Below, one piece after another: positions 12,326 to 29,626 of a stretch of 63,688 bases of DNA. The translations under genes and the position numbers were made by a program. Source of the DNA: a virus; the IMG/VR virus record IMGVR_UViG_3300036846_000403, positions 1 through 63,688 of that record, one strand, 5' to 3'. The notes under the pieces are model-generated. The model was not told the origin of the DNA. It was given only the letters and a program-made list of their open reading frames with translations, and did not search any database. Position 1 is the stretch's first letter. Every line of letters starts with the position of its first letter.

Positions 12326-12531
12326 AGACCTACAAGGCAGTCATCGGGCCGATCGATGACATGCCATCTGACGACTATGACAGCATTCTGCTCCGCATGG
12401 AGCTGACATTCACCGTCGGCCCGCAGTCACTCAAAACGCCGTACCTCATCATCGAGGGATTCCTCAATGATAACTTTCTAGGTGACTACATGGAACTTAC
12501 CTCACTTGAGGAGGTGAAGGATGGGAAGTGA
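12310..12531 (+). CDS. Hypothetical protein (73 aa)
   Basis: GTG 12310 lies in the tail of the previous gene. A beta-rich chain (VKTYKAVIGPIDDM, LLRMELTFTVGPQSLKTPYL) with an acidic C-terminus. It overlaps the start of the glycosyltransferase-like gene, so the three genes are coupled. Function unknown. Confidence 0.65.
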   Translation: MPNQVKTYKAVIGPIDDMPSDDYDSILLRMELTFTVGPQSLKTPYLIIEGFLNDNFLGDYMELTSLEEVKDGK

Positions 12532-13360
12532 CGTCGTCTATATACCAACGTTGAGTAGGCTGGACCTGCTTGAGAGAGTCGTGCCGTTCTGGCTACAGCA
12601 AGAGATGCAAGTCCGCTTGATAGTTGAGCGCCACGAGTATGCCGCGCACCAGACACTCAAGAAAAGGATGAAGTGGGGCGGCAATGTCTACATTCTGCCG
12701 CTAAAGCTGGCTGGGCGCGGAATCGGGTACGCCCGGAGGGAGTGTGTCCTACACGCTCACGCCACGCACCTGAAGTCAGTCATCATGTCCGATGATGATA
12801 TGTACCCGCACCCCGATACCGATGTATGGGAGCTGATTGATGAAGCCGAGCGGCCAGGCGTGCTCGGCATCGGGGCAACCAGGTCACTTCACGATCGCTT
12901 CACTAACGGCGCGATCTCCCGCAACCACGGCGTGATCCTCTGCCCTGGCGGATGGGGGCTTCAGTTGTTCGGGCTCAACATCCAGGAGGCGATCAGCTGC
13001 GGCAACTTCGACCACCGCCTACACACGATAGGCGAGGATGCCGAGCTGGCCCGCCAGGGAATTGCGCGGGGTATTCCCTGGCTAGTTCACTGCGACGTCA
13101 AAGCTGTGGCAGCCGGGAAGCGCTACGCGCCGGGCGGGTTCAGCGCCAAGTACAAGCTGCTCGAAGCGCGCCGGGAAGCCGAGAAAGTGTGTATGGAGAT
13201 CATACACAGACGCTGGCCCGACTACACGAATCCACCAGAGAAGCCACTCCGGATGATGTGGCAGAAAATGCTGTCAAACTACATCCCCGAGTGGCGCGAC
13301 TACTCGGCCCTTCACGGAGGCGACATCAAGAACCTACGGAACAAGCACTTTACACCGTAA
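12521..13360 (+). CDS. GT-A-fold glycosyltransferase-like protein (279 aa)
   Basis: ATG 12521 with a GGAGG in the preceding gene. The pattern fits a GT2-like GT-A fold: an N-terminal VVYIPTLSRLDLLERVV, GRGIGYARRECVLHA, a DDD motif at residues 91-93 (IMSDDDMYPH) for metal and nucleotide-sugar binding, and TIGEDAELARQGI (about 167-179), which is like the catalytic ED motif. Known phage GT-A enzymes glycosylate DNA bases or host surface polymers; which applies here cannot be told. The C-terminal helical part is basic. Confidence in the fold is moderate; the substrate is unknown. Confidence 0.65.
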   Translation: MGSDVVYIPTLSRLDLLERVVPFWLQQEMQVRLIVERHEYAAHQTLKKRMKWGGNVYILPLKLAGRGIGYARRECVLHAHATHLKSVIMSDDDMYPHPDTDVWELIDEAERPGVLGIGATRSLHDRFTNGAISRNHGVILCPGGWGLQLFGLNIQEAISCGNFDHRLHTIGEDAELARQGIARGIPWLVHCDVKAVAAGKRYAPGGFSAKYKLLEARREAEKVCMEIIHRRWPDYTNPPEKPLRMMWQKMLSNYIPEWRDYSALHGGDIKNLRNKHFTP

Positions 13361-13579: not shown

Positions 13580-13728
13580 TGGCTAGTGTAGTTATTATCA
13601 TCACCGTCTCAGATACCGGGCACATAAAGGTCGATGTCCGCGGTCAGAGAATCAGTCAGTCAGGCATCAAGTCGGCGCTCAGTGCCGCGTCACGACTAGT
13701 AGAGCAGGGAGCATATGACCAGGAATAG
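13579..13728 (+). CDS. Tiny hypothetical protein (49 aa)
   Basis: ATG 13579 is coupled to the membrane miniprotein. A strand (SVVIIITVSDTGHIKVDV) is followed by a helix (SQSGIKSALSAASRLVEQG). The end overlaps the dCMP deaminase start by 14 nt. Function unknown. Confidence 0.6.
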   Translation: MASVVIIITVSDTGHIKVDVRGQRISQSGIKSALSAASRLVEQGAYDQE

Positions 13729-14206
13729 GGGTGAACGCCCTAACTGGGACACCTACTTCCTCGGCGTGGCGCTGGCAGTATCCGCGCGAGGCGACTGTAC
13801 CCGTAGGCTAGTCGGGGCAATCATGGTACAACCCTTCACGCACGACATCCTCTACACCGGCTATAACGGAGCACCACGGGGCGAGCCCGGCTGCCTGACC
13901 GCTGGTGCATGTCCACGTGGGCAGCACTACCTAGCGAAAACTGGCGGCCCAGTTACGTACTGCGCTTGCGGCAATACCTGGCCATGTCACCTCTCGGCCG
14001 AGTCGGGCACGGACTATGACGTCGGTAACGGGCTATGTATAGCAATCCACGCCGAAGAGAACGTCCTGCTATGTGCCGGGCGAAACGCAATAGGCAAGAT
14101 CATGTACGTCACGCACAAGCCATGCCTAATGTGTATACGCCTGATCCGTGGCGCAGGCGTTGACCGAGTAATCTGGCCAGGCGGTCAGGAGCTATTCGAC
14201 CTCTAG
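13715..14206 (+). CDS. dCMP deaminase family protein
   Basis: A cytidine/deoxycytidylate deaminase that would convert dCMP to dUMP, feeding ThyX (22543-23442). The zinc-site motifs are clear: HAEEN with H112 and the proton-shuttle E114, and PCLMC with C137 and C140. There are extra Cys/His residues at C60-C66 and the YCAC/CH region (about 83-91), as in dCMP deaminases with a second structural zinc. Length (163 aa) is normal. ATG 13715 follows CAGGGAG. Reaction assignment is from family knowledge. Confidence 0.9.
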   Translation: MTRNRGERPNWDTYFLGVALAVSARGDCTRRLVGAIMVQPFTHDILYTGYNGAPRGEPGCLTAGACPRGQHYLAKTGGPVTYCACGNTWPCHLSAESGTDYDVGNGLCIAIHAEENVLLCAGRNAIGKIMYVTHKPCLMCIRLIRGAGVDRVIWPGGQELFDL

Positions 14207-17422: not shown

Positions 17423-18397
17423 GTGGACAGTCTCCCTACGCTACGGACGTCCGAGCGCGCCGCCTTCAAGCGGTGTATGTTTAAGTGGTGGCTAGAGTAC
17501 CGCCACGGGTACCGACCGCGGGCAAAAGACGCCGACGCACTCTGGTTCGGAATAGGTGTGCATGAAGCCCTAGCGGCCTGGTACCTGAAGGGCACGCGGC
17601 GCGGCCCGCATCCGGCCGAGACCTGGGAACGCTGGGCCGCTGATGAGATTGCTTTTGCTAAGACTTACCTTGATGATACGTTCGATGAGCCGGTATGGGT
17701 TGACGCAGTAGAACTCGGCATCGCAATGCTTGAGGCGTACATCGACCGCTACGGCCGCGATGAACAGTGGAGTATCATCTCCACAGAGCAGCCGTTCCGC
17801 GTCCGTATTACCCGCGAGGGAACACCAGTTGCCTACTTCGCTTCGCGATGGGATGGCGTGGCGCGGGATGAAGGCGACGGGAAGATATACCTGCTCGAAC
17901 ACAAGACTGCTGCGCAGATCGTTACGGCCTACCTCGAACTTGACGACCAGGGCGGTTCCTACTGGGCGGTTGCTAGCCAACTGCTACGCGCGAAAGGCAT
18001 ACTGAAGCCCGGAGAGAATATCTCCGGCATCATTTACAACTTCCTCCGGAAAGCCCTACCCGATGAACGCCCGCAGAATGAGGAAGGTCTTCGCCTAAAC
18101 AAGAACAGCTCAGTTTCTAAGCGACAGCCACCGCAGCCGTTCGTCCGGGTAATGGTTGAGCGCAGCCCGAAGGAACAGCGCACTCAGCTAGAACGGATAG
18201 CTGATGAGGTCGCGGTGATGAATGCCGTACGTGACGGCATCATCCCAATCACGAAGACGCCGACGAAAGACTGTACCTGGTGTCCGTTCTGGATTCCCTG
18301 TAACCTACACGAGCGTGGGAGCGATGCCTATCAGACCGTGCTGAAGAACAACTACGTACAGATAGACCCTTACAAGGACATGAGAAAGAGTGCGTGA
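17423..18397 (+). CDS. Cas4/RecB-type PD-(D/E)XK nuclease with Fe-S cysteines
   Basis: A RecB-family exonuclease. The order is an N-terminal Cys (KRCMFKWW, C18), FGIGVHEAL with the motif I His, DGVARDEGDG, then LLEHKT (about 157-161) as the E-x-K of the active site, and C-terminal cysteines CTWCPFWIPC (C284, C287, C293). One early and three late Cys are the Cas4/AddB iron-sulfur arrangement. The start was set at GTG 17423, 6 nt after AGGAG; ATG 17417 is possible. The context (helicase, Sak4-like ATPase, SSB-like) indicates a recombination or end-processing role. Confidence 0.85.
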   Translation: MDSLPTLRTSERAAFKRCMFKWWLEYRHGYRPRAKDADALWFGIGVHEALAAWYLKGTRRGPHPAETWERWAADEIAFAKTYLDDTFDEPVWVDAVELGIAMLEAYIDRYGRDEQWSIISTEQPFRVRITREGTPVAYFASRWDGVARDEGDGKIYLLEHKTAAQIVTAYLELDDQGGSYWAVASQLLRAKGILKPGENISGIIYNFLRKALPDERPQNEEGLRLNKNSSVSKRQPPQPFVRVMVERSPKEQRTQLERIADEVAVMNAVRDGIIPITKTPTKDCTWCPFWIPCNLHERGSDAYQTVLKNNYVQIDPYKDMRKSA

Positions 18398-19332
18398 TGC
18401 CACCAACACGAGGGCTGCGAGGGGCAAGGCCGGGAGCCCAACGACAATCAGCAAAGCAATCAAGGGAAGCGCCGCTCTCTATGATGGAAGCGGATGTCGA
18501 GATCGTAACCGAGGATCTGTCCGAGTCCGGACAGACGGCCCCGGTCAACATCCTGATCCACGGGCCGTCCGGCCACGGCAAGACCCTACTCGCAGGCGGC
18601 GCGGCCGACGGTACCCGGCCGGTAACCTTCCTGTCTACCGAGACGGAAGGTGTAGCCAGTGCCCGCGCCGTCGGCAGTATGGCCAAGCTGTGGCGGTGCC
18701 CATCCTGGGAACACGCCGTCGCCGGGGTCAAGAAGGCAGAGCAGGAATTCACGATCAGGGACTGGATGGTCGTCGACTCCGGCACCAAGATGCAAGAGAT
18801 GTATATGCGCTGGATCCTGGCGCGCGAGAATGAGCTGAACCCTCAGCGTGACCTCGACATCCCAGCGATCCAGAACCACCAGAAGTACCAGAACGGATTT
18901 AAGCGCTGGTGCGACCGGCTTATCGACGGCCAGTTCAACGTGATCTTTATCACGACATCAATGACTGCCGACGACGCCGAGGGTGAGGAACGGATCATCC
19001 CGCACCTCCTGGGGAAGAAAGGCGAGATCTCGGATTATGTCTCGGCTCAGTTCTCCGTCGCGCTGTACTACTCCGTCGCCCGCGAGTCGCGCGAGATGCG
19101 CGGACCCGTTATGCGCCGAGCCCTAGCCCAGCCCTATCCTCCCTGGTACGCCAAAGACCGCTATATGGCTCTCGGCAAGTTCTGGGATGTCGAAGAGGGC
19201 AATTACTTCGCGATGTCTGCGATGATCGAAGCGATCGACAAGGCAAGGGGAGCAGATGCCGGCGAGGAAACCGAAGCCCCAGTCAGAGCCCGCGTCCCCC
19301 GTCAGGCTCGTAGATCCAGGAACTCAAACTAA
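18397..19332 (+). CDS. Sak4/AAA_24-like RecA-fold ATPase
   Basis: A phage recombination ATPase of the Sak4-like/AAA_24 group. Walker A GPSGHGKT is at residues about 56-63 and Walker B WMVVDSGTKM follows; ITTSMTADDAEG and a large middle segment fit the family. Sak4 proteins anneal or pair single-stranded DNA with the help of SSB, and an SSB-like protein is encoded just downstream. ATG 18397 overlaps the nuclease stop. The first 28 residues are low in complexity, so the double ATG at 18481/18484 is a real alternative start. The C-terminus is basic. Confidence 0.8.
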   Translation: MPPTRGLRGARPGAQRQSAKQSREAPLSMMEADVEIVTEDLSESGQTAPVNILIHGPSGHGKTLLAGGAADGTRPVTFLSTETEGVASARAVGSMAKLWRCPSWEHAVAGVKKAEQEFTIRDWMVVDSGTKMQEMYMRWILARENELNPQRDLDIPAIQNHQKYQNGFKRWCDRLIDGQFNVIFITTSMTADDAEGEERIIPHLLGKKGEISDYVSAQFSVALYYSVARESREMRGPVMRRALAQPYPPWYAKDRYMALGKFWDVEEGNYFAMSAMIEAIDKARGADAGEETEAPVRARVPRQARRSRNSN

Positions 19333-19456
19333 GGAGTGGCTACACAAACACGTCCTCAAACGACACCCCGGCGTCCGGTTCGTAACCTGGGGAGACCATG
19401 ACGCAAACCACCGCCTCCATCAGCCCTATCTAGATCACACGCACGAAGGGACATGA
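19256..19456 (+). CDS. Small His-rich, zinc-finger-like protein (66 aa)
   Basis: ATG 19256 has a good AGGGGAG 6 nt upstream and lies wholly out of frame in the end of the ATPase gene, over 77 nt. The sequence KEWLHKHVLKRHPG then DHDANHRLHQPYLDHTHEG is unusually His-rich and could bind a metal. It sits between the Sak4-like and SSB-like genes. Function unknown. Confidence 0.6.
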   Translation: MPARKPKPQSEPASPVRLVDPGTQTKEWLHKHVLKRHPGVRFVTWGDHDANHRLHQPYLDHTHEGT

Positions 19457-19457
19457 C

Positions 19458-20294
19458 ATGGTTCGCCTACGTAAAGAGGACACCGAAGACCTCAATGTCG
19501 AGGAACTCGACGCCGTAGAATACTCAGATGAGCAATTCGACAGTTACGACGGCGAGGTGCCGCCCAAGGATCTCGAACTGACCGGATTCGTCCGGAAGAT
19601 GTGGTGGACCCGGAGCGGCGCAGGCGACCCGATGCTCAAGGTGCTCTGGGTGGCCGCCGAGAACGACGGCGACAACGACGAGTACAATGGCTGTCCGTTC
19701 TGGCTGAACGCAGCGCTGATCGGCGCGGCGAAGTTCCGGTGGGCACCGTTCCTCGACAACTTCGGCATCACGCTCAAGCAAGTCAAGAACAACACCGATG
19801 TCCAGGACAAGGACGACCAGAACGGCGCGCCCATCAACAAGATCGCCAACTGGCGGCCCGGCGAAGAGAACGATGAAGCCTGGTGCCGGATTATCACCGA
19901 TCGGGAGCGCTACCAGGGTGAGTGGCAGCCCAAGGTGAAGACATGGCTTCCCTACGACGCCGACGAGGCAGATGAGGAGCCTGCGGACGACGAAGAGACA
20001 GACGACGAGTACGATGAGGAGGATGAGGACGACTCAGAGCCCGAGCCCGAGCCGGAACCGGAACCGGCGCGCGGCAGGGGTCGCGGAGCGGCCCGGAACG
20101 CCCCTGACAAGGCCGCACCCGCCCGGTCGGGTAGAGGTACCCGCGCCGCCGCCCCAGCCGCTGACAAGCCCGCTCCGGCCCGTACGGCGAGAGGCGCGCG
20201 ACCGGCTAAGGCCGCTGCGCCCGCCGAGAAGCCTGCGCGCGGACGTGGCCGGGCACGCAGCAAGGACGGCTACGACGACGAGCCGCCATTTTAA
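19458..20294 (+). CDS. SSB-like protein with long PE/RG linker (278 aa)
   Basis: ATG 19458 after GAAGGGACATGAC. The first 170 residues look like a DNA-binding domain of SSB/DUF669 type (LTGFVRKMWWTRSGAGDPML, KVLWVAAENDGDNDEY, WLNAALIGAAKFRW). Then come a very acidic stretch, PEPEPEPEPARGRG and Ala/Arg/Lys-rich repeats, and finally the tail YDDEPPF. An acidic tail ending in P-F is the signature by which bacterial SSBs recruit partners (consensus DDDIPF). Assignment as the phage SSB is inferred from that tail and from the recombination neighbours. Confidence 0.65.
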   Translation: MVRLRKEDTEDLNVEELDAVEYSDEQFDSYDGEVPPKDLELTGFVRKMWWTRSGAGDPMLKVLWVAAENDGDNDEYNGCPFWLNAALIGAAKFRWAPFLDNFGITLKQVKNNTDVQDKDDQNGAPINKIANWRPGEENDEAWCRIITDRERYQGEWQPKVKTWLPYDADEADEEPADDEETDDEYDEEDEDDSEPEPEPEPEPARGRGRGAARNAPDKAAPARSGRGTRAAAPAADKPAPARTARGARPAKAAAPAEKPARGRGRARSKDGYDDEPPF

Positions 20295-20391
20295 CCCGAT
20301 CGCAAGAAACCTAGCGCTAGAGATCAGGCGGCTCCGTGAGGAAGCTCATCAGAGTTTCCTCCGGGCCGTCTGGTCCGGGAAGTGGCCATAG
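20245..20391 (+). CDS. Possible small overlapping gene (48 aa)
   Basis: A frame from GTG 20245 to TAG 20391 fills the gap between the SSB-like gene and MazG. Its last 32 residues (NPIARNLALEIRRLREEA then HQSFLRAVWSGKWP) look like a natural amphipathic helix, and the stop is coupled to the MazG GTG (TAGTG). The N-terminal part overlaps the SSB gene and is less convincing. No good Shine-Dalgarno was seen. Confidence 0.35.
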   Translation: MAGHAARTATTTSRHFNPIARNLALEIRRLREEAHQSFLRAVWSGKWP

Positions 20392-20753
20392 TGAGTTACC
20401 AAGATGACAGCATCGACTGGCAGATCATTCGTTACGTAGACAACTGGCTCGATGAAGATGTTCCCGAGTACTACAAGGACCAGCCACTCGCTCAGGACTG
20501 GGCGCGGATCTCTAAGGTTATCGAAGAACTTGGCGAAACCATATCCGCGATAATCGGCGCGACCGGCCAGAATCCTCGCAAGGGGATTACCCACAAGTCG
20601 ACAGACATCGTCGATGAACTCGCAGATGTCGTGATGACGGGAATCCTCGCCATCCAGCACTTCACCAAGGACGCCCCGGCGACACGGGATATCCTGCTCC
20701 AGAAGCAGGCATTCATCTACCGGCGAATGATGAATCTGGAAGAGAAGAAATGA
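20391..20753 (+). CDS. MazG-like nucleotide pyrophosphohydrolase
   Basis: A MazG/all-alpha NTP pyrophosphatase-like protein: KVIEELGETISAIIGATG (E-E-x2-E motif) followed by VDELADVVMTGILAI (D-E-x2-D-V motif) in the middle of a 120-aa chain. Such enzymes hydrolyse (d)NTPs to monophosphates, cleansing pools or lowering alarmone levels. The start GTG 20391 follows GGGAAG and is coupled to the upstream stop; GTG 20382 is an alternative. It begins the run of nucleotide enzymes to 24134. Confidence 0.8.
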   Translation: MSYQDDSIDWQIIRYVDNWLDEDVPEYYKDQPLAQDWARISKVIEELGETISAIIGATGQNPRKGITHKSTDIVDELADVVMTGILAIQHFTKDAPATRDILLQKQAFIYRRMMNLEEKK

Positions 20754-21517
20754 GCGTAGCCGTCCTTGGCTGCGGGCCGTCCGGACTGGCGGCGGCTCTG
20801 GCTGCCGTCAACTCCGGGCATAAGGTCCTGATAGCAAGCAACACCACCATCCCAAGTACCCAGTATGGATGCCAGTATCTTCACTCTCCCATCCCCGGCT
20901 ACCGGGACGTAGCCCACGCCACAGTAGAGTACCACCTAAACGGTACGGCCGAAGAATACCGCCTGAAGGTTTACGGGCGGAAGTGGACGGGTAGGGTATC
21001 CCCGGAAGACTTTATAGGCGAACATGAAGCCTGGGACATCCGCGAGACGTACCAGGAGATGTGGGGAGATCTTCACGAGAACGCGAGAGTTACATTTATC
21101 AAGATTCCTAAAATCAAATCTGGTATCATATCTAAGCTTGTGTATAGATTCGATCCCGCCTTCATCATCTCGACCGTACCCGCGCCAGACCTATGCTACA
21201 ACCCGGCCCATCAATTTATCTACCATAACATCTTCGCAAACGGCAGCACGAAGCCGGCAACTGAAGCCGTCAACACAGTAGTGTGCGACGGCACCCCGAT
21301 GAACGACTGGTACCGGAACGCCTGTGTGTTCGGGTACCGGACGATCGAATGGCCACACCGGCCAACGAACGGCGACGCAACAGTTTCCGTCAGGAAGCCA
21401 CTCACCACCGACTGCGACTGCTACCCGGAGTATTTCAGGATCGGCCGGTACGGCAAGTGGCAGAAGTCCTACCTAGTTCACCAGACTTATCCGGAAGTGA
21501 TGGAGATCCTTAGTTGA
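20750..21517 (+). CDS. FAD/NAD(P)-binding Rossmann oxidoreductase-like protein
   Basis: A dinucleotide-binding fold: VAVLGCGPSGLAAALAAVNS at residues 3-22 is a textbook GxGxxG beta-alpha-beta unit, followed by GHKVLIASN (the second strand). At 255 aa it is shorter than typical flavin monooxygenases, and the rest (EDFIGEHEAWDIRETYQEMW, ...TVVCDGTPMNDWYRNAC, CDCYPEYFRIGR) matches no family I know. ATG 20750 overlaps the MazG stop and its stop overlaps the HAD gene. Linkage with ThyX (an FAD enzyme) suggests a nucleotide-related redox step; that is inference. Confidence 0.7.
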   Translation: MSVAVLGCGPSGLAAALAAVNSGHKVLIASNTTIPSTQYGCQYLHSPIPGYRDVAHATVEYHLNGTAEEYRLKVYGRKWTGRVSPEDFIGEHEAWDIRETYQEMWGDLHENARVTFIKIPKIKSGIISKLVYRFDPAFIISTVPAPDLCYNPAHQFIYHNIFANGSTKPATEAVNTVVCDGTPMNDWYRNACVFGYRTIEWPHRPTNGDATVSVRKPLTTDCDCYPEYFRIGRYGKWQKSYLVHQTYPEVMEILS

Positions 21518-21552
21518 TCAGTATTAGGAATCCTTCAAGGTCACAGCCAATC

Positions 21553-22239
21553 ATGAGAGGGGTAAAGCAATTGCGTAGACGAGAGTTCCGCAGCGGCGAA
21601 GGAAAGCCAGTCGTGGCGCTCGACATCGATGGGACGCTCGGCAACTACCACGCCCACTTCCTCTGGTTCGCGGAACGCTGGCTCGGTATGCCTATGCCGT
21701 CCGAGTACGACATCAACCCCGGTCGTCGCCTTCACGAGTTCATGAACGTCCCCCACCATATCTACCGGGAATGTAAGCTAGCCTACCGGCAGGGCGGCCT
21801 GAAACGCTTCATGCCTGTGTACCCTGGCGCCGCCGAGCTAACACACAATATCCGTAATGCCGGCGCGGAAGTATGGATCTGTACGACGCGCCCGTATATG
21901 CGCCTAGACAACATCGACCCCGATACGCGGGAATGGCTCGGCCGCAATCACATCGACTACGACGCCGTGATCTTTGAAGGAGTGCCGCTCGGTGACAGGA
22001 TTACAACCAAGTATGAAGATCTGGTCCGACAAGTAGGCATAGACAGGGTTGTCGCGGCAGTCGACGACCTACCCGAGCAGACAGCGGACGCAATCAAGAA
22101 CGGCATCCGGCGCGTCTACCTCCGCGCCCAGCCATACAACCAGAGTCCCGAGGTACTAGGCGAACGCATCGACACCCTGGGCGTCCTGTGGCTGAGACTC
22201 CGCAAGGACATATCCGAATGGCAGGCAAATCACTCATGA
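21553..22239 (+). CDS. HAD-family 5'(3')-deoxyribonucleotidase-like protein
   Basis: HAD phosphatase: ALDIDGTLGNY places the catalytic DxD at residues about 24 and 26, CTTRPYMR is the motif II Thr region, and AAVDDLPEQ the motif III/IV aspartates. The order and the 228-aa length fit NT5C-like deoxynucleotidases, which dephosphorylate dUMP/dTMP. ATG 21553 was chosen; TTG 21514 (overlapping the previous stop) and TTG 21571 (better Shine-Dalgarno, GAGAGGGG) are alternatives. It lies directly before ThyX. Confidence 0.8.
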   Translation: MRGVKQLRRREFRSGEGKPVVALDIDGTLGNYHAHFLWFAERWLGMPMPSEYDINPGRRLHEFMNVPHHIYRECKLAYRQGGLKRFMPVYPGAAELTHNIRNAGAEVWICTTRPYMRLDNIDPDTREWLGRNHIDYDAVIFEGVPLGDRITTKYEDLVRQVGIDRVVAAVDDLPEQTADAIKNGIRRVYLRAQPYNQSPEVLGERIDTLGVLWLRLRKDISEWQANHS

Positions 22240-22550
22240 AGAAAACCTTTTGCGACGTAGACGGTAAGCAGTGCGTCAACACGACCGTCCTAGTACACAT
22301 ACAAGTCCATCACCACACGAAGGACGGGCAGCCCGTAGGCCAGGATTACTTCAGGCCGATCGAGGTCTGTACGGACTGTGAGACTCTTCTCAAGAGACTA
22401 TTCCCGCAGGCGTTCGTTATGGACCACAGCCGTAGCGAAGAACCGATGATTGCGGAAACTCCGGTCGCCTACGAGAACGCAGCCGCAAGGCAAAGGATAT
22501 CAAGGGAAGAATTCGAAGAGGCAATGGAAAGGCGGCACAACGGTGAGTGA
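22236..22550 (+). CDS. Small cysteine-rich protein (104 aa)
   Basis: ATG 22236 overlaps the HAD stop (ATGA). FCDVDGKQC at the N-terminus and EVCTDCETLLKRLFP in the middle give a four-cysteine zinc-ribbon-like arrangement around a beta hairpin (TTVLVHIQVHHHTKDG). The C-terminal third is a charged helix. The stop overlaps the ThyX start. Function unknown. Confidence 0.75.
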   Translation: MKKTFCDVDGKQCVNTTVLVHIQVHHHTKDGQPVGQDYFRPIEVCTDCETLLKRLFPQAFVMDHSRSEEPMIAETPVAYENAAARQRISREEFEEAMERRHNGE

Positions 22551-23442
22551 CGACGACAAGAGCAGGCTACCCGCTCGATGGGCTGACGTAGCGATGTACT
22601 CGGCCCCTCCGCTTGTAGAACCAGGCGACAAGGTAACACCGCGGGTGTCCCTGGTATCCATGACGCGGAATCCCCTTCGCGTTATGGCCGCTGCCGCCGA
22701 GACGTACCAGGGAGGTGTCTACCGCGACCCGAGTACCGTAACCCACGATCAGTGTATGAAGTGGCTTAACGGCTTCAAGGACAGCGCCATCACCGCACCG
22801 CTGGAGTTCGTCAGTCTTCACTTCTACTTTGAAGGCGTGACGCGGGCCTTCACTCACCAGCTTGTCCGGCAGCGCACCGCGACATTCGTACAGGAGTCGA
22901 TGCGGTTCGCCGTCAAGGAGAATGCCGCCTGGGAGGTGGCCGACCCGCCCAGCCTGGAAGGACTGAAGGATGACCATCCCTGGCGCCTAACCTGGGACGC
23001 TGCGACCTCCTACGCGGCGCAGGCATACAACCGGCTAGTCGCCAACGGTATGCCGGCCGAAGACGCACGCGGGCTCCTGCCGACGAACATCACGACGCGA
23101 GTCCACTACCACACCGACCTCCTCAACCTTACCCGGCAGGCCGGGAACCGGCTCTGCTCTCAGGCTCAGCACGAGTGGAAGGTTGTCTGGAACCAGATGA
23201 TCCTCGCCATCCTCAACTACGGCTCAACCGACGAGAGGTGGCAGCAGAAGGAGATCGTCAAGCTGTTCAAGCCGGTCTGCTACCAGAAGGGCAGTTGTGG
23301 CTTCCACGGCCCGGCCGACCGCTGGTGCGTTATCCGTGACCGGGTTGATGCCCACGCCGCTGCCGGCGATCACCCAGACACCTGGACTGACATCAACCCG
23401 CGCGAGCCCCTCAGCGCCGCAGCCGCTAGGAAGCCGAAGTGA
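22543..23442 (+). CDS. thyX: Flavin-dependent thymidylate synthase ThyX
   Basis: ThyX converts dUMP to dTMP using FAD, NADPH and methylene-tetrahydrofolate. The signature RHRx7S is present as RQRTATFVQES (R109, R111, S119), with His replaced by Gln, followed by MRF. Other family features are THQLVRQR, the TRVHYHTDLLNL block and R-x-C-SQAQHEW. GTG 22543 overlaps the previous stop and follows GGAAAGGCGG; 299 aa is slightly long. The C-terminal extension has cysteines (KPVCYQKGSCGFHGPADRWC) not typical of ThyX, perhaps a metal site. It works with the dCMP deaminase upstream. Confidence 0.95.
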   Translation: MSDDDKSRLPARWADVAMYSAPPLVEPGDKVTPRVSLVSMTRNPLRVMAAAAETYQGGVYRDPSTVTHDQCMKWLNGFKDSAITAPLEFVSLHFYFEGVTRAFTHQLVRQRTATFVQESMRFAVKENAAWEVADPPSLEGLKDDHPWRLTWDAATSYAAQAYNRLVANGMPAEDARGLLPTNITTRVHYHTDLLNLTRQAGNRLCSQAQHEWKVVWNQMILAILNYGSTDERWQQKEIVKLFKPVCYQKGSCGFHGPADRWCVIRDRVDAHAAAGDHPDTWTDINPREPLSAAAARKPK

Positions 23443-24134
23443 AGGGACTTATCATCGGCGCCAGCTCCGGCATAGGCCAGGCTATTGAAGAGTACATCAG
23501 CAGCCACGCCGACGCGACCGAATGTGAAGACTGGCTGACGCCGGGAACTGACGTTCTCGATGTACGCTCCTCAGCCGAGTGCTACGCCTGTATCCGACAG
23601 GAAGGTCCGTTCGACTACATCATCTATAGCGCAGGCATCAACGAGCTAGCCTGGATCACCGCGATAGGTATGCAGTGGGACAACACGTTCGAGAACGTCT
23701 GGGACGTCAACTGTCACGGATTCGTCCGGATCGTGGGCGCACACGAGCACCTCTTCCCCGAGGCAGGCGGAAGTATCGTAGCTATCAGCAGCGATGCCGC
23801 CCGCCGGCCAATGCGCGGCTCGATCGCCTACTGCTCTAGCAAGGCCGCGCTCGACATGTCGGTAAGGGTTATGGCGCGGGAGCTAGCGCCACGCTGGCGC
23901 GTAAATGCGATAGCACCCGGCATCACCGACGATACCAATATGACTAGGTACCTCGACGATAACATCCCAATCTTCCGGGGCTGGACCTCCGACTACGCCC
24001 AGGAGTATGAGAAGTCCCAGATACCTATGGGTCGTCGTGCCGCACCCGGAGAGATTGCCGAAGTAGCCGTATCCGTACTGATAGGTCCCGAGTACCTAAC
24101 AGGCGCTATCCTTGAGATCAACGGAGGAAGATGA
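23439..24134 (+). CDS. Short-chain dehydrogenase/reductase
   Basis: A classical SDR of 231 aa: GASSGIG at residues 7-13 (cofactor), IYSAGIN, a SSD catalytic Ser region (AISSDAARR), YCSSK with Y131 and K135, and NAIAPGI after it. The enzyme would use NAD(P)H to oxidise or reduce an alcohol or ketone; the substrate is unknown. It is unusual in a phage and is embedded in the ThyX/HAD operon with 4-nt overlaps on both sides (GTG 23439), pointing to a shared pathway. Confidence 0.9.
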   Translation: MKGLIIGASSGIGQAIEEYISSHADATECEDWLTPGTDVLDVRSSAECYACIRQEGPFDYIIYSAGINELAWITAIGMQWDNTFENVWDVNCHGFVRIVGAHEHLFPEAGGSIVAISSDAARRPMRGSIAYCSSKAALDMSVRVMARELAPRWRVNAIAPGITDDTNMTRYLDDNIPIFRGWTSDYAQEYEKSQIPMGRRAAPGEIAEVAVSVLIGPEYLTGAILEINGGR

Positions 24135-24391
24135 TGACCGAGCCAACACCAGCGCAAGAACCCCCGGCCGCACCTCCGGCCGAACCAGACCACTTCCATG
24201 TCTGGGACATCCTGGAGACCCAGATACCAAAGGGTCAGGCCATACACCCACGTATACGCCCGGAGAACTTCACGATCGTGCTCGTGAGATGTAGGACGTG
24301 TAACCTCCCGAGGGGAATCGAGGTGCCTGGTCTCTGGAACCTGGAACAGATACTCAAAAACTACGCCCAGATAAGGAAGCCCGGTGAGTGA
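24131..24391 (+). CDS. Small protein with CRTC motif (86 aa)
   Basis: ATG 24131 (or 24134) behind GGAGGA. A Pro/Ala-rich N-terminus (TPAQEPPAAPPAEP) leads into a domain with HFHVWDI, VLVRCRTCNLPRG (C-x2-C) and a terminal helix (LWNLEQILKNYAQIRK). It is possibly a one-zinc protein using the His pair. Coupled to both neighbours. Function unknown. Confidence 0.7.
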   Translation: MMTEPTPAQEPPAAPPAEPDHFHVWDILETQIPKGQAIHPRIRPENFTIVLVRCRTCNLPRGIEVPGLWNLEQILKNYAQIRKPGE

Positions 24392-24725
24392 AGATGAAAT
24401 CCGCGCCGCAGCTTACGAGTTCATCGTCAAGCTAGACGTCACGCCTACGCCCGATGCCATCAGCCAGCTATCAGGTCCGTTCGCAACAGCACTGATGATC
24501 ATGTGCGATCGCGGATACGATCCTGAAGGGGCAACCTGGCAGTCAAAAGGATGGAAGGGACTCGTCCAAGACATCCTGAACAAGGCCGGTCGCCTAAAGT
24601 TCCACTCATGGCGGAACAACCGCTTTGATGAAGACTCCGCGATCGACATCATCAACTTCGCCGGTTTCTACTGGCGCCTAAGAAATGAAGGTTCCAAGTG
24701 GGGCGAGCTAGGTGAGCCTGGATGA
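24384..24725 (+). CDS. Hypothetical helical protein (113 aa)
   Basis: GTG 24384 overlaps the previous gene. Helix-rich throughout (DEIRAAAYEFIVKLDVTP, ISQLSGPFATALMIMCDRGY, LVQDILNKAGRLKFHSW, AIDIINFAGFYWRLRNEG). It resembles the small alpha-helical phosphoribosyl-ATP pyrophosphohydrolase-like proteins near MazG genes in size, but no motif proves it. It ends overlapping the next ATG. Confidence 0.7.
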   Translation: MSEDEIRAAAYEFIVKLDVTPTPDAISQLSGPFATALMIMCDRGYDPEGATWQSKGWKGLVQDILNKAGRLKFHSWRNNRFDEDSAIDIINFAGFYWRLRNEGSKWGELGEPG

Positions 24726-24850
24726 TAAGCGCCCACACGCACGGTCACGGTTACGTAAACCTGTACATCAGTCCGCTCTCGATAGCATGTATCATAATCG
24801 TCGTGCTTATCATCGCAGTAGTGATGTGGGAGTCCAGGAAGGGAAACTAA
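24722..24850 (+). CDS. Single-span membrane miniprotein (42 aa)
   Basis: ATG 24722 overlaps the previous stop. A His-rich N-terminus (MISAHTHGHGYVNLY) precedes one transmembrane helix (residues about 18-35, PLSIACIIIVVLIIAVVM) and a short basic tail (ESRKGN), so N-out/C-in is expected. The stop overlaps the next ATG (TAATG). Function unknown. Confidence 0.65.
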   Translation: MISAHTHGHGYVNLYISPLSIACIIIVVLIIAVVMWESRKGN

Positions 24851-25200
24851 TGGGGAAGCTAGACAAGGCACCAGATGACCCGCGCTTCATCGCAGCCGTG
24901 GACCTTATCGGCCGTACCGGCGCGAAGCAATTCAAGATAGGCTACTGCGATGAGGATGCCCCGCCTGTCGTCTGGTACGTCTGCGTTCTCTACGGCGACC
25001 ACTGGGAAGTAACCGGAGGGCAAGGACCACTCCTAGCTATCTTCCGGATGCTGGAGTCACTCATCGACGGCGGCGTCTGTATGCACTGTAAAAAGCCAAC
25101 CGGCTTCGAGGAAAGTGCCGAGCCCGTACCGCTCGACCAGCTAGTGTGCTGGTACCAGTGGGACCCCAGCACTAAGACTTACGCAAGAGGATGTGCCTAG
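24850..25200 (+). CDS. Zinc-ribbon-like protein (116 aa)
   Basis: ATG 24850 is coupled to the membrane miniprotein. The first half is an alpha/beta domain (FIAAVDLIGRTGAKQFKIGY, VVWYVCVLYGDHWEVTGG). Residues about 77-113 hold CMHCKKPTGF ... LVCWYQWD ... RGCA, four Cys for a zinc site. It ends the long operon; the promoter at 25198 starts on its stop codon. Confidence 0.75.
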   Translation: MGKLDKAPDDPRFIAAVDLIGRTGAKQFKIGYCDEDAPPVVWYVCVLYGDHWEVTGGQGPLLAIFRMLESLIDGGVCMHCKKPTGFEESAEPVPLDQLVCWYQWDPSTKTYARGCA

Positions 25201-25226
25201 CGTACCGCGCCCGGATAGGATATAAT
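25198..25226 (+). promoter_or_regulatory. Class A promoter
   Basis: -35 TAGCGT (25198-25203), 17-nt spacer, perfect -10 TATAAT (25221-25226). The -10 and the next nine bases are identical to those at 8536-8550. It drives the polymerase operon. Confidence 0.75.
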
Positions 25227-25255
25227 CGACGTAAGGGACCTAGAAAGGACATCAA

Positions 25256-25459
25256 ATGTCAACCTCCTACTTCTGTGACCCGTTCTGGCATGACGGCGAC
25301 AAGACAGTCAAAGCCAGGTTCCTAATTCTGCCTACCCCGATGGAACGCCACCTCTCTCTCAACGGGTACGCCTGCTGTGAGATGCACGCAGGCCCAGCTC
25401 TACGGTTCATGCTAGAGAAGGTCAAGATAGTTACGGTGCGTGACGTCGGAGGTGAATAA
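25256..25459 (+). CDS. Small cysteine/histidine protein (67 aa)
   Basis: ATG 25256 after GAAAGGACATC and directly behind a class A promoter. YFCDPFWHDG and YACCEMHAGP give Cys/His ligands; the end is a helix plus strand (RFMLEKVKIVTVRD). A one-zinc protein of unknown role at the head of the polymerase operon. Confidence 0.75.
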   Translation: MSTSYFCDPFWHDGDKTVKARFLILPTPMERHLSLNGYACCEMHAGPALRFMLEKVKIVTVRDVGGE

Positions 25460-25471
25460 GGAGTGATTTGG

Positions 25472-25678
25472 ATGGATATACCCGGAGGCAGCCCGGTATA
25501 CATTCTCCCAAAAGATCCTCCGAACTGCCCTATCCACAAAGGACCTATGAAGCTCAACTTCCAGGCCGACCGTTACGACTGCCTTGGCTACGACGGCGAA
25601 GGATGTGAGTACAAGGTTAGCTGCGAAGAGTTCCTGTTCGAAATAGGTACTACCGAACCGGGCGGATTCGAGGTATAA
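25472..25678 (+). CDS. Zinc-ribbon protein (68 aa)
   Basis: ATG 25472 lies 8 nt after AAGGAG; GTG 25463 is an alternative with GGAGG. Ligands: PPNCPIHKGPMKL (C-x2-H), YDCLGYDGEGCEYKVSC (three Cys). The layout of two beta hairpins with paired ligands is a zinc ribbon. It precedes the PHP gene by 7 nt, so it could be a polymerase accessory. Confidence 0.75.
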   Translation: MDIPGGSPVYILPKDPPNCPIHKGPMKLNFQADRYDCLGYDGEGCEYKVSCEEFLFEIGTTEPGGFEV

Positions 25679-25685
25679 TAGGAGT

Positions 25686-26615
25686 ATGAGGTACGTCAGC
25701 CTTCACCACCACAGCACCTTCAGTCACGGTGATGGGCACAAGCCTCCCGCAATTCACGTAGCCCGCGCCGCAGAACTTGGATACACCGCTATGGCTCTGA
25801 CCGAGCACGGCGGCACGAGCAGCCATTTCCAATTCGAGCAAGCAGCTATCAAGGCCGGGGTAAAGCCTCTCTTTGGGCTTGAAGCCTACACCGGCCCGGT
25901 CGACGCGAACCGGAGTCAATGGAAGTACCATCTCACGATCCTCGCCGGGAGTAATGATGGATACCGAAACCTCAATCAACTGGTCACCCAGTCTTGGCGC
26001 GATCATCACTACCATCCAACAGTTTCTGGAGAGAATCTCCAGCGCAATTCTGGAGATCTGTACATACTTTCTGGATGCACTGGATCGATGCTTGCCTGCG
26101 CTCTTGTGGGAGGTAAGGGGATTCCAGAACCTACCTCGCGCGACGGATATGGATGGGATGACGCAAGACGCATCATCAGCCGTTTTTCCCGACTATCGGG
26201 AGAACGTTATTTTCTTGAAGTCCAGCCCTTCTGGGAACTTGAGAAAACCTGTCGAATCAACCCAGCTTATGAACGCCTATCAAGGGAAACTGGCGTGCCA
26301 CTTGTCGCAACCTGTGACGTACACTACCCTAGACCCGACGACTCTGAGATGCAGGCTATCCTACACGCAGTACATCGAGGCAATCAATCGATCGATGATG
26401 CGATGAGGGCGTGGAACTATTCGGTACCAATGACGCTTCCGACTTCGGATAAGGAACTAGGCGAGCGCCTGATTAAAACTGGCCTGTCGCGGAACGCTGC
26501 CTGGGAAGCTATCCTTAACACGGAGTGGATAGCTAGCCAGTGTAACGTAACCCTGCCGAAAGCCGAGCGCCTAGTGTACCCGATTGAGGAAGGTGACTGG
26601 AAGCCGTGGACCTAG
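25686..26615 (+). CDS. DNA polymerase III alpha, PHP-domain half
   Basis: A 309-aa protein matching only the N-terminal PHP domain of DnaE. HHHSTFSHGDG at residues 7-17, LTEHGG and ATCDVHYP supply the metal-binding motifs that, in DnaE-type polymerases, give or descend from a Zn-dependent 3'-5' exonuclease. The chain ends at the linker where DnaE would continue into the catalytic palm. ATG 25686 follows AATAGGAGT. The motifs are intact, so this half could be an active proofreading nuclease. The polymerase half is encoded separately at 26787, so the holoenzyme is presumably reassembled from two chains. Confidence 0.85.
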   Translation: MRYVSLHHHSTFSHGDGHKPPAIHVARAAELGYTAMALTEHGGTSSHFQFEQAAIKAGVKPLFGLEAYTGPVDANRSQWKYHLTILAGSNDGYRNLNQLVTQSWRDHHYHPTVSGENLQRNSGDLYILSGCTGSMLACALVGGKGIPEPTSRDGYGWDDARRIISRFSRLSGERYFLEVQPFWELEKTCRINPAYERLSRETGVPLVATCDVHYPRPDDSEMQAILHAVHRGNQSIDDAMRAWNYSVPMTLPTSDKELGERLIKTGLSRNAAWEAILNTEWIASQCNVTLPKAERLVYPIEEGDWKPWT

Positions 26616-26803
26616 CTAAGTGTAAGTGTACGGCGTTCTGGGTACCGTGCGTGCGCCTAGCGACGCAGGAGGATATGCTCTGTGACGAATGCCGAGAAAA
26701 TACCTGCTGTGTAATCGAGCTGCCTGAACAAGATCCTGTACACGCACATATTATAAAACTTGATCCACGACACACTTGGAGGATCGGTGAACCGGGACTC
26801 TGA
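26606..26803 (+). CDS. Cys-rich small protein bridging the split polymerase (65 aa)
   Basis: GTG 26606 overlaps the end of the PHP gene by 10 nt, and its 3' end overlaps the catalytic-half gene by 17 nt. CKCTAFWVPC ... LCDECRENTCC gives seven Cys in the first 36 residues, a probable zinc-binding unit; the rest is a short beta/turn segment. GAGGAAGGTG lies 10 nt upstream. Its position exactly at the break between PHP and palm suggests a structural link or assembly role. That is inference. Confidence 0.65.
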   Translation: MDLAKCKCTAFWVPCVRLATQEDMLCDECRENTCCVIELPEQDPVHAHIIKLDPRHTWRIGEPGL

Positions 26804-29039
26804 ACAACTACTTTGGCAGTGGGTCCGCTACGGCTGGAACTACCGCAAGATCAACCAGCTCCCGCGCGCCGAGATAGACTGGTACGTCGAGCGCATCAAG
26901 TATGAAATGGACCTTATCCTGAAGCGCGGACTTGCTGACTTCTTCTTGTTTACCTCGGATACTATCAGATGGGGCAAGGATCACGGCATTCCATTCGGGC
27001 CGGGGCGTGGAAGCACCGCGGCCAGCGTGGTTGCCTACCTCCTACGGATTACCGAGATTCCCCCGCACAAGTACAAGGGCATGATCTTCGAGCGCTTCAT
27101 TGACATCTCCCGGCCCGACCCGCCCGACATCGACGTCGATGCCTCTGATGAGGACCGCTGGCGTGTGTGGGAGTACCTGGAGGGGAAGTATGGCGCGGAT
27201 AAGGTCGGCCATATCGGGAACTTTGTCCGGTACCGTGGGAAGAACTCGCTGGCTGACGTAACGAAAGTTTACAACATCCCGATCTATGCGCGAGAGACAG
27301 TAGCCAATCTACTGATAGAACGTTCCGGTGGAGACTCCCGGTTTAGCTCTACTCTGGCCGACACATTCGATCTCTTCCCTGAAGCACAGAAGGTACGCGA
27401 CGAGTACCCGGACATAGCCAGGGCCTGCCGTCTCGAAGGGGACGTGCGCGGGATGTCCGTCCACGCGGCCGGGCTCGTGATAGCGAATAGCCCGCTTACC
27501 GATATCTGCGCCGTGTACGAGCGCGACGGCGTTAAGGTAATGTCGATCGACAAGTATGACGTCGAGTACGCCGGTGCCCTGAAGCTTGACTTCCTTGGTC
27601 TCTCGACTATGGGGATGATTGCCCGGTGTCTCCGGATGGCCGGCCTAACCCTGGAGGATCTATATGCGGTTCCTGACGATGACCCTGAAACTATCGAGGT
27701 ATTCCGGAAGAGTGATGTCGTTGGAGTCTTTCAGTTTGAGGGTCGCGCTACACGGCTCGTCAACCGAGACGTCCATCCAGATCACTTCATGCATATCTCA
27801 GACATCAATGCTCTGTCGCGTCCTGGACCACTATTTTCCGGACAGACGGCCGCATACGTGGATGTCCGTCACGGACGCAAAAAAGCTGAAAGGCTACATC
27901 CGCTCGTGGATGAAGTCACCCTTGAGACTTATGGGCAGATCATCTACCAGGAACAGATCCTCCGAATCCTCAAGGAGATCGGTGGATTCGACTGGTTCTC
28001 TGTTAGCCAGATCCGGCGGATTATCTCGAAGAAAATGGGCGAGGCTGCCTTCCAGATGTCGTATCAGCAGTTCGCGGACGGGGCGAAGTCCCTCCACGGT
28101 ATCCCCGCCGAGACTGCTGATAAGATCTGGCGCCGCCTCGTGACGTCCGGAACCTACAGCTTTAATATCGCGCACTCGATCTCGTACTCGATGCTTGCCT
28201 TCTGGACGGCATTCCTGAAGATACACTACCCAGTCGAGTTCTACGCGGCCAGCCTAGCGAAAGCCACGAATGCCGATTCACAGTTCAGGCTTATGCGCGA
28301 TGCCCTTGCTCACTCGGTCGACGTAAAGCCACCGTCCCTCACACACTCCCGCGCCACCTGGCGTCCGGTTCCCGGCATCGGCCTAGTCGCTGGCTGGCAG
28401 TCAATCCCGAAGGTAGGCGAGAAGACTGCCTTGCGTATCGAGGCGCTAGCCGGTGACTACGGATTCGATGACTGGATCGAACTCCGCGCCATCCCAGGGA
28501 TAGGTGATAAGACTATCGCCCGTATGGAAGAGTGGACCCTGGCGCGGGACCCATTCGGACTGTACCGGACGGAGAAGCGCCTGGCCGCTGTTCTCCGGTT
28601 CCTCAAGCATCAAGGGAAAGGAGCCGCGCCAATCCCTACGCACGACGGCGACAAGCTTTCCGGAATGAAGGTGAAACAGCGTCAGCCGGGTCAGAGATGG
28701 GTACCGGGTCCGCGCGTCGTCTATATGGGGATGGTAGGTAAGGTCGAGTATAAGGACATTGTGGAAGACGAGAGGTCCCGAACCGGCAAGGAAGTAGAAG
28801 AGATCCTGAAGGAGCTGAAGCGCCCGGATCTCGTGAAGCGGGCTACTCTTCACTGCTTCGATAACAGTAATGAGGAAGTCTACGCGCGGGTGAATAGATG
28901 GCAGTTCCCGCGCCTACAGAAACAGCTAGCACAGATACACCCGAATCACGACGTCGTGGTTATCCTCGGGAACCGCATCGCCGGATTCGGTACGCCGGTA
29001 ACCGTCGAGAGAATATGGATCTTTGATCCCGACAACTAA
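26787..29039 (+). CDS. dnaE: DNA polymerase III alpha, catalytic half
   Basis: A C-family DNA polymerase lacking the PHP domain: 750 aa from GTG 26787 (GGAGGA 4 nt upstream; TTG 26760 is an alternative). It starts with NRDSEQLLWQWVRYG, the segment that follows PHP in DnaE. GRGSTAASVVAYLL (about 74-87) is the palm signature, PDIDVD (D114, D116, D118) carries catalytic aspartates, LKLDFLGL the third. FNIAHSISYSMLAFWTAFLK matches the end of the palm/fingers. A tandem helix-hairpin-helix (IPKVGEKTA, IPGIGDKTI) and a C-terminal OB-like domain follow. This is the phage replicative polymerase. Confidence 0.93.
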   Translation: MNRDSEQLLWQWVRYGWNYRKINQLPRAEIDWYVERIKYEMDLILKRGLADFFLFTSDTIRWGKDHGIPFGPGRGSTAASVVAYLLRITEIPPHKYKGMIFERFIDISRPDPPDIDVDASDEDRWRVWEYLEGKYGADKVGHIGNFVRYRGKNSLADVTKVYNIPIYARETVANLLIERSGGDSRFSSTLADTFDLFPEAQKVRDEYPDIARACRLEGDVRGMSVHAAGLVIANSPLTDICAVYERDGVKVMSIDKYDVEYAGALKLDFLGLSTMGMIARCLRMAGLTLEDLYAVPDDDPETIEVFRKSDVVGVFQFEGRATRLVNRDVHPDHFMHISDINALSRPGPLFSGQTAAYVDVRHGRKKAERLHPLVDEVTLETYGQIIYQEQILRILKEIGGFDWFSVSQIRRIISKKMGEAAFQMSYQQFADGAKSLHGIPAETADKIWRRLVTSGTYSFNIAHSISYSMLAFWTAFLKIHYPVEFYAASLAKATNADSQFRLMRDALAHSVDVKPPSLTHSRATWRPVPGIGLVAGWQSIPKVGEKTALRIEALAGDYGFDDWIELRAIPGIGDKTIARMEEWTLARDPFGLYRTEKRLAAVLRFLKHQGKGAAPIPTHDGDKLSGMKVKQRQPGQRWVPGPRVVYMGMVGKVEYKDIVEDERSRTGKEVEEILKELKRPDLVKRATLHCFDNSNEEVYARVNRWQFPRLQKQLAQIHPNHDVVVILGNRIAGFGTPVTVERIWIFDPDN

Positions 29040-29048
29040 GGAGGAAAT

Positions 29049-29282
29049 ATGCCGAGCTACACTGAAGAAGAAGAGGCAATTATCAGGGTCCGTAATGCGG
29101 ATTCTATGACGGTCGAGTTCTTCAAAAAGCATATGGAAGCGCGGCACGGTGAGACAATACTCCGGTTCAAGTATATGGACCTAGATGATACGGAATACCT
29201 AGAAGCGTGCTGGCGTGCGTACCACGGCGCTATCCACCGTTTTGGACTTCATGATGACCTCGACCACTATCATGGTAGGTAG
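29049..29282 (+). CDS. Hypothetical protein (77 aa)
   Basis: ATG 29049 has AAGGAGG right after the polymerase stop. Mostly helical and acidic with His near both ends (FFKKHMEARHGETILRF, LEACWRAYHGAIHRFGLH, DLDHYHGR). The clustered His/Asp at the C-terminus could bind metal. It may associate with the polymerase, judged from position. It overlaps the next gene by 11 nt. Confidence 0.7.
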   Translation: MPSYTEEEEAIIRVRNADSMTVEFFKKHMEARHGETILRFKYMDLDDTEYLEACWRAYHGAIHRFGLHDDLDHYHGR

Positions 29283-29472
29283 TAACCACGGCCGTCGAGT
29301 CAGAGTTAGGTACCGGCGAAGCCTCTCGCCCTTCAGCGGCCGTACAGGGACAATAGTTAAAAGGGATGCTAGGCCGCTCGGCCCGCTCGATACGTGGGTC
29401 CTGCTCGACCACCCAGTCATGGGCAGCCGTGTATTTGCCTTTCGTCGCTGGGAGCTGGAACGGCTCGCATAG
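29272..29472 (+). CDS. KOW/SH3-like small basic protein (66 aa)
   Basis: ATG 29272 is inside the end of the previous gene, without a clear Shine-Dalgarno. GRRVRVRYRRSLSPFSGRTG then TIVKRDARPLGPLDTWVLLD resembles a KOW-type barrel (basic strand, G-x-x-G-x-I/V turn, acidic strand). It ends in RRWELERLA. It is the last rightward gene before the convergent late region. Assignment is by pattern only. Confidence 0.65.
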   Translation: MVGSNHGRRVRVRYRRSLSPFSGRTGTIVKRDARPLGPLDTWVLLDHPVMGSRVFAFRRWELERLA

Positions 29473-29522
29473 ACCCCGCCGCTAACCCCCGGCCGACCGG
29501 CCCGCTATACCCCTCGCGCACG

Positions 29523-29626
29523 GCCCGGAGACGAAATCTCCGGGCCTATCTCCCCCTAGCCGGTACCTACCGGCCGGGAAGCCCGGCAAAGGCTGTCAGG
29601 ACCCTCTCCGCACGATTCGGAGGGAG
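29523..29626. terminator. Convergent-gene terminator region
   Basis: Between the converging gene blocks: GCCCGGAGA-cgaaa-TCTCCGGGC (29523-29545), CCGGTA/TACCGG (about 29560-29573) and an imperfect CCCTCTCCG/CGGAGGGAG stem (29602-29626) followed on + by CCTCCGTTT. Probably bidirectional termination. Confidence 0.6.

Follow-up and report, generated by a model that had tools for sequence, protein, structure and literature searches.

We analyzed the window, a complete virus record of 63,688 bases (IMGVR_UViG_3300036846_000403), and detected six head-to-tail open reading frames (ORFs), all on the plus strand, encoding a MazG-like protein, a flavoprotein, a HAD phosphatase, a four-Cys protein, a divergent thymidylate synthase ThyX and a short-chain dehydrogenase/reductase (SDR). 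The run is flanked by a Sak4/SSB-like pair on one side and, downstream, by a DnaE polymerase in two pieces; no close match to the stretch 18000-30000 was found in the phage collection. An earlier note on this DNA had described the six genes as a cluster joined by short overlaps, with an uncertain HAD start, and had read Gln in the RHR motif of ThyX and an extra Cys-rich tail. These readings were borne out: all six ORFs are present, the successive junctions from the MazG-like gene to the SDR overlap by 4, 4, 4, 8 and 4 nucleotides (nt), the HAD gene starts at TTG 21514 or ATG 21553, and the tailed ThyX has R-Q-R versus R-H-R of conventional ThyX. Past the SDR the overlapping run goes on with two more genes (overlaps of 4 and then 8 nt). 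The features are given below, where counts out of 88 refer to the actinophage-type set, i.e., the window, 7 named phages and 80 IMG/VR loci (the best 80 of 288 relatives of the window flavoprotein).

20391..20753, plus strand: candidate MazG/PRA-PH-like all-alpha nucleoside triphosphate pyrophosphohydrolase, 120 amino acids (aa); Pfam matches below threshold, EExxE...ExxD residues
20750..21517, plus strand: UDP-galactopyranose mutase (UGM)-like flavoprotein, 255 aa, core gene; PHROG_8720, AlphaFold (AF2) model, Foldseek
21514..22239, plus strand: HAD phosphatase, NT5C / PNKP-phosphatase-like (TTG start; ATG 21553 alternative); profile matches, catalytic residues
22236..22550, plus strand: four-Cys protein without Pfam or PHROG match, in 18/88 loci
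22543..23442, plus strand: divergent ThyX (GTG start; Thy1) with RQR for RHR, Phe at the Tyr91 position and a Cys-rich tail
23439..24134, plus strand: FabG-like SDR; PHROG_3142, adh_short_C2, N91-S118-Y131-K135
24131..24391, plus strand: small HxH...CxxC protein, seen in 25/88 loci
24384..24725, plus strand: conserved 113-aa protein between ThyX/SDR and DnaE
25686..26615, plus strand: N-terminal piece of DnaE-like DNA polymerase III alpha (relatives annotated DnaE)
26760..29039, plus strand: C-terminal piece of DnaE-like DNA polymerase III alpha; PHROG_11165, E 3e-257

Divergent ThyX and the flavoprotein partner

The window ThyX is a member of the Pfam Thy1 family (E 1.7e-29; 103.4 bits versus the cut-off of 24.8). 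We take RHR(X7)S to be the motif defining ThyX, as is also visible in ThyX of the PDB; the window protein, with RQR, departs from it. The RHR histidine was found to be replaced in 121/121 readable ThyX that are partnered with the flavoprotein, by Gln (35), Ser (5) or Thr (3) in the actinophages and by Thr (69), Ser (8) or Asn (1) in the others. The position of Thermotoga maritima Tyr91 has Tyr in none of these 121 sequences; the window has Phe, the actinophages have Phe 35, Ala 5 and Asp 3, and the others Val 47, Ala 26, Met 2, Thr 2 and Ile 1. Ser88 is kept in 43/43 actinophage rows and lost in most sequences of the Gram-negative type (Thr 52, Ser 17 and Ala 9 in the 78 others). Like conventional ThyX, the partnered proteins retain Arg90 (121/121) and the dUMP-activating Arg174 of T. 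maritima, equivalent to R203 and invariant in the 21-row alignment A5. The incomplete ThyX row L059 is outside the 121, and the invariant list of alignment A8, which has one mis-framed row (L006), was not used.

For comparison, 80 IMG/VR control loci were retrieved with conventional-ThyX patterns that avoid the RHR motif. Their 79 readable ThyX have Tyr (68) or Phe (11) at the Tyr91 position and RHR in 77 cases, with RSR (L210) and THR (L252) once each; the incomplete control L233, reading RHR, is outside this number. In a tree of 97 ThyX, in which long branches are present, a single branch (99/87) set all 57 partnered rows apart. The earlier hint of an unusual ThyX is strongly supported by this separate clade and by the loss of both residues in every partnered sequence.

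Ser88 and Tyr91 of T. maritima ThyX aid in the displacement from the flavin carbinolamine, which is consumed more than 100-fold more slowly by Y91A, according to an excerpt of the published work (PMC8316439). Since the Arg174 equivalent is retained and the Tyr91 position is changed throughout (Ser88 in most sequences of the Gram-negative type), partnered ThyX would seem to have preserved dUMP (deoxyuridine monophosphate) binding but to differ in carbon transfer, considering the Y91A data. The ThyX chemistry is probably altered, as judged from these residues.

The window flavoprotein belongs to PHROG_8720, a PHROG without assigned function (E 3.9e-73 in the PHROG profile search), and its N-terminus matches Pfam FAD_oxidored below the cut-off (E 2.8e-4). 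The AF2 model, built from 69 sequences (pLDDT 95.9), has UGM as the closest solved fold (Foldseek E 1e-7; Z 14.3, root-mean-square deviation (rmsd) 4.0, 249 aligned residues), while p-hydroxybenzoate-hydroxylase-like proteins are within about 1 Z of UGM for this family and the shared fold shows no function. Judged by the fold only, we infer that the window flavoprotein binds flavin adenine dinucleotide (FAD). PHROG_8720-type proteins were detected by tblastn (E up to 10) in 124/50,697 phage records, with query coverage of 80% or more in 120; the host genera are Gordonia (46), Microbacterium (36), Mycobacterium (26), Streptomyces (9) and a small number of others. A near-invariant Cys179 and a C222-x-C224 pair were observed in this family.

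The second flavoprotein family, PHROG_4828 (311-333 aa), was found in 359/50,697 phage records, 291 from Pseudomonas, variously annotated as hypothetical, UDP-galactopyranose mutase or polyamine oxidase; the displayed rows of both families are mostly annotated "hypothetical" or "oxidoreductase". Hidden Markov models of the window flavoprotein, HAD and MazG-like protein had no direct profile match among the Gram-negative-phage proteins, and an earlier hhalign comparison from 5 sequences was weak (probability 73.7). Deep alignments, however, gave a probability of 98.3 and E 1.3e-13 over 224 columns. The PHROG_4828 model (pLDDT 89.9) matches UGM with Z 21.5, rmsd 3.6 and 308 aligned residues, with protoporphyrinogen oxidase scoring lower (18.6), and the structural search with this model retrieves a window-family member at E 9e-11. 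Therefore, the two families are homologous. No cellular relatives were seen in one genome-contig scan with a single N-terminal pattern, which is weak evidence of absence.

UGM is the best-scoring match for both families, the predicted likeness in fold extending over the whole flavoprotein chain, and the proteins have GxGxxG at the start and, C-terminally, a GR[YF]xxW motif that we take to be reminiscent of UGM. The flavoproteins differ from UGM in length (255-333 aa), in the low identity to the fold matches (8-17%) and in having ThyX and DnaE as neighbours.

Whole-record searches covered 29 actinophage-type and 30 Gram-negative-type flavoprotein records, a part of the fetched loci. ThyX was present in 54/55 flavoprotein records of 37 kb or more (29/29 actinophage-type and 25/26 Gram-negative-type); the records without it are L105, a 49-kb contig with the flavoprotein gene near the contig end, and four short fragments. 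The flavoprotein/ThyX counts by host genus are 291/290 for Pseudomonas, 36/36 for Microbacterium, 27/27 for Escherichia, 26/26 for Mycobacterium, 9/9 for Serratia and 6/6 for Xanthomonas. The tblastn counts for Gordonia are mismatched (46/68), but Beyoncage, which is among the ThyX hits, has a divergent flavoprotein detected by profile (E 4e-67). Conversely, the profiles of both families detected the flavoprotein in 0/47 conventional-ThyX records (47 of the 80 control records, all at least 40 kb, a set outside which the RSR control L210 falls) and in 0/6 phages and viruses with RHR ThyX (Gmala1, Syleon, HCTV-5, ChewyVIII, OneUp, ARV1). As positives, the A2 profile matched Beyoncage and the A3 profile matched RHph_TM2_3B, PB1 and Kyle. 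The ThyX-flavoprotein pairing is real.

Conserved module in phages of distinct hosts

Profile searches of the 88 actinophage-type loci detected HAD in 83, DnaE in 62, ThyX in 44, SDR in 40, the four-Cys protein in 18 and the MazG-like protein in 16; these counts are limited by contig ends, and ThyX may sit beyond the fetched stretch. All 71 loci that extend at least 1.5 kb past the flavoprotein have HAD inside that distance (43/43 when clustered at 70% identity). In the 38 loci with 7.5 kb of downstream sequence, DnaE was present in 38/38, ThyX in 28/38 and SDR in 25/38. None of the 7 tested module-region proteins of Beyoncage matched the HAD profile, so HAD may not be universal in the module.

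The SDR search led to phages of Gram-negative hosts: Serratia MyoSmar, Escherichia WFC (Wifcevirus), Xanthomonas XcP1 and Pantoea Kyle. The gene order there is flavoprotein-ThyX-HAD/PNKP-(SDR-VOC)-DnaQ-DnaE, with a flavoprotein of 311-329 aa, a FabG-like SDR and a VOC-fold protein. Pseudomonas phage PB1 has the flavoprotein, ThyX, HAD/PNKP, DnaQ and DnaE without SDR or VOC, and the Wifcevirus Bas99 has the full module and 4 EcoRV sites. ThyX was detected in 78 of 85 Gram-negative-type loci, HAD/PNK in 72, SDR in 50 and VOC in 47, in near-constant order. The module is a recurrent set across phages of distinct host phyla. Some actinophages also have VOC beside the SDR. The VOC-fold gene nearly always comes after that of the FabG-like SDR (47 VOC versus 50 SDR loci of the 85; L089-L092 and many of L094-L173). 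Its conserved polar residues in alignment A6 are Q17, E84/E86 and H110, presumably unlike the usual VOC metal ligands.

Two expectations of the earlier note were decided by these searches. A scattered neighbourhood, which the note had named among the outcomes speaking against its reading, is ruled out, with the set kept across actinobacterial and proteobacterial phages. The FAD enzyme and the SDR as the core redox pair had to be rejected: the SDR is present in just 23/35 whole records (missing, e.g., from PB1, Gibson, Leopard, Wollypog and Beyoncage) versus ThyX in nearly all large flavoprotein records. We take the divergent ThyX and the UGM-like flavoprotein to be the module core, accompanied by the HAD phosphatase and the MazG-type pyrophosphohydrolase beside the DnaE replisome.

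The HAD protein of the window matches Pfam HAD/NT5C below the cut-off (E 3.8e-4) and conserves the DxD, T, K and D catalytic residues (D37, D39, T124, K166 and D185). The MazG-like protein is below the Pfam cut-off for both PRA-PH (E 4.7e-3) and MazG (0.059), and 16 loci share its EExxE...ExxD residues. Proteins matching DUF1599, "nucleotide modification associated domain 1" (E 0.018, sub-threshold), and DUF6378 (E 1.3e-21) occupy this slot as well; such nucleotide-pool enzymes speak for the modified-nucleotide reading given below. The SDR (adh_short_C2, E 1.6e-27) has the GxxxGxG motif and the tetrad N91, S118, Y131 and K135, invariant in alignment A7.

Possible synthesis of a modified pyrimidine nucleotide

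Two additional genes of the window, outside the gene run of the earlier note, are potentially related to the module function.

13715..14206, plus strand: dCMP (deoxycytidine monophosphate) deaminase, likely dUMP supplier for ThyX; PHROG_174, E 2.1e-38
12521..13360, plus strand: GT-A-like glycosyltransferase, possible decorator; DDD motif, TAGT PF20691 below the cut-off (E 2.3e-5; 24.8-25 bits versus 27.5)

We tentatively suggest, with a chance slightly below even, that the conserved module yields a pre-replicatively modified pyrimidine nucleotide, helping against restriction; the making or recycling of a modified pyrimidine, raised by the earlier note, is plausible. The dCMP deaminase would give dUMP. 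The altered ThyX would join a carbon to C5 of the pyrimidine nucleotide with changed carbon-transfer chemistry, and the flavoprotein, potentially a reduced-flavin enzyme like UGM, would act on the ThyX substrate or product and set a non-methyl group at C5, which SDR and VOC, where present, would adjust. HAD and MazG would hydrolyse the canonical deoxynucleoside mono- or triphosphates, so that DnaE would incorporate the modified nucleotide, made before replication. The more specific two-flavoenzyme route is possible but rather doubtful: the UGM-like flavoprotein and a ThyX without the methyl-transfer acid would together equip dUMP (or dCMP) with a new group at C5 by way of flavin-N5 adducts, giving a new DNA base in hundreds of sequenced phages, Pbunavirus therapy phages and the restriction-resistant Wifcevirus among them, with SDR, VOC and other genes adding optional steps. 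No such pathway is described in the literature searched.

Pre-replicative nucleotide modification is known for 5-hydroxymethylcytosine of T4, 5-hydroxymethyldeoxyuridine (5hmdU) of SPO1/SP8 and aminoadenine of S-2L. The module resembles such pathways in the combination of a pyrimidine C5 enzyme, a pyrophosphohydrolase, a nucleotidase-type HAD and a dCMP deaminase near the polymerase, and it has the conserved grouping of nucleotide enzymes next to the polymerase that is expected of a phage modified-base pathway. It differs in having ThyX, not a ThyA-type enzyme, and the UGM-like flavoprotein partner. An excerpt of the MetaGPA study links ThyA-type thymidylate synthase, PRA-PH and dCMP deaminase, occurring together in modified-cytosine clusters, to modified DNA (PMC8670742); the clusters in this excerpt have carbamoyltransferase and ThyA, whereas the module has the flavoprotein and ThyX (PMC8670742). 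In the literature searched, no paper proposing the module or describing the UGM-like flavoprotein partner was found. The Xenia2 announcement, in the part available, lists oxidoreductase, phosphatase, FabG, ThyX and MazG one by one (PMC11385102).

Several observations weigh against a modified pyrimidine. Pbunavirus has the flavoprotein, ThyX, HAD and DnaE, and DNA of the Pbunavirus SCUT-S1 was mapped with HindIII, EcoRI or XbaI, according to partial text of the report (PMC6521218). Fully 5hmdU-substituted SP8 DNA resists only 17/204 enzymes, EcoRI among them, as given in an excerpt (PMC7653180). Therefore, cuttability alone does not exclude T modification, but if EcoRI did cut the Pbunavirus DNA, complete substitution by 5hmdU is unlikely there, since SP8 DNA resists this enzyme. 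EcoRI sites are not avoided (40 in PB1 and 20 in WFC). As partnered ThyX form one clade, their changed residues and their pairing with the flavoprotein amount to approximately one evolutionary event, long maintained. Actinophage ThyX retain Ser88, and 35/43 have Phe at position 91, like 11/79 conventional ThyX. Finally, the window flavoprotein family has Ser where strand 2 would end in the acidic residue.

The main rival is the ordinary supply of dTMP (thymidine monophosphate) and house-cleaning for the DnaE replisome, with ThyX producing dTMP, the deaminase producing dUMP, MazG and HAD clearing unwanted nucleotides, the flavoprotein and SDR serving side metabolism and the DNA being unmodified. 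Every part has a plausible housekeeping role, DnaE always adjoins the module (38/38), and the apparent cutting of Pbunavirus DNA by common enzymes fits. We consider this explanation somewhat improbable: it does not account for the tie of the flavoprotein to the one ThyX clade lacking Tyr91 and the RHR histidine, or for the retention of the module in phages whose hosts presumably have their own thymidylate synthase.

The tight coupling to the altered ThyX could also mean that the flavoprotein is a catalytic helper, offsetting the lost residues through reduced flavin, by oxidizing NAD(P)H or by handling the methylene, with dTMP still the product. To our knowledge, known ThyX enzymes require no partner protein; no flavoprotein-ThyX fusion was noticed, and HAD, MazG, SDR and VOC are left unexplained, which makes a helper unlikely, even though UGM and ThyX both work by reduced flavin and N5 adducts (the excerpted PMC8316439 mentions the N5-galactose adduct of UGM beside the ThyX N5 adduct).

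UGM as the best fold match and the sub-threshold TAGT match in the window suggest another role for the flavoprotein, a sugar-nucleotide mutase feeding a DNA glycosyltransferase such as that at 12521-13360. This is very unlikely: the flavoprotein is coupled to ThyX and has 255 aa versus about 360-500 aa for UGM (aligned PDB chains), and the GT-A-like glycosyltransferase was found in only 19/88 flavoprotein loci, many of these being truncated, while tblastn detected it in none of the named phages. Least probable of all is the repair of DNA or RNA ends by a set with HAD as PNKP-type 3'-phosphatase, suggested by the matches to PHROG_415 (E 3.6e-18) and HAD_PNKP (9e-6), since HAD travels with ThyX, and the Gram-negative-phage HAD is fused to a C-terminal part that has its PHROG_4889 match in common with separate module proteins.

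If a modified nucleotide is made, it would account for unexplained restriction resistance, and the module is perhaps the missing genome protection of the restriction-resistant Wifcevirus, a resistance that bears on a modified nucleoside only indirectly. Such a nucleotide would also affect how widely used therapy phages, including Pbunavirus, are sequenced and engineered, and imply new ThyX chemistry. If only dTMP is made, the ThyX clade lacking two catalytic residues and having a flavoprotein companion would still be new enzymology.

Additional observations

Agrobacterium phage Atu_ph04, according to a part of its description, has DNA refractory to nine restriction enzymes and encodes "UDP-galactopyranose mutase" (gp6) and thymidylate synthase (PMC6630229).

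Among the scanned window genes (a part of the ORFs), no TET/JBP hydroxylase or other known modification gene was detected beyond the glycosyltransferase-like gene and a methylase-like gene. The latter, similar to C5 cytosine DNA methyltransferases (30191-31021, minus strand; PF00145, E 6.5e-8), is located in the late region; elsewhere in the 88 loci, a methyltransferase-like gene was seen only in L013, between Cas4 and Sak4.

The 113-aa protein at 24384-24725 (plus strand) is without Pfam or PHROG match and was found near DnaE in 38/88 loci. The split DnaE of the window (25686-29039, plus strand) has a small ORF between its pieces; DnaE is also split in Leopard, Sparcetus and Beyoncage, and in Wollypog with an HNH gene between the pieces.

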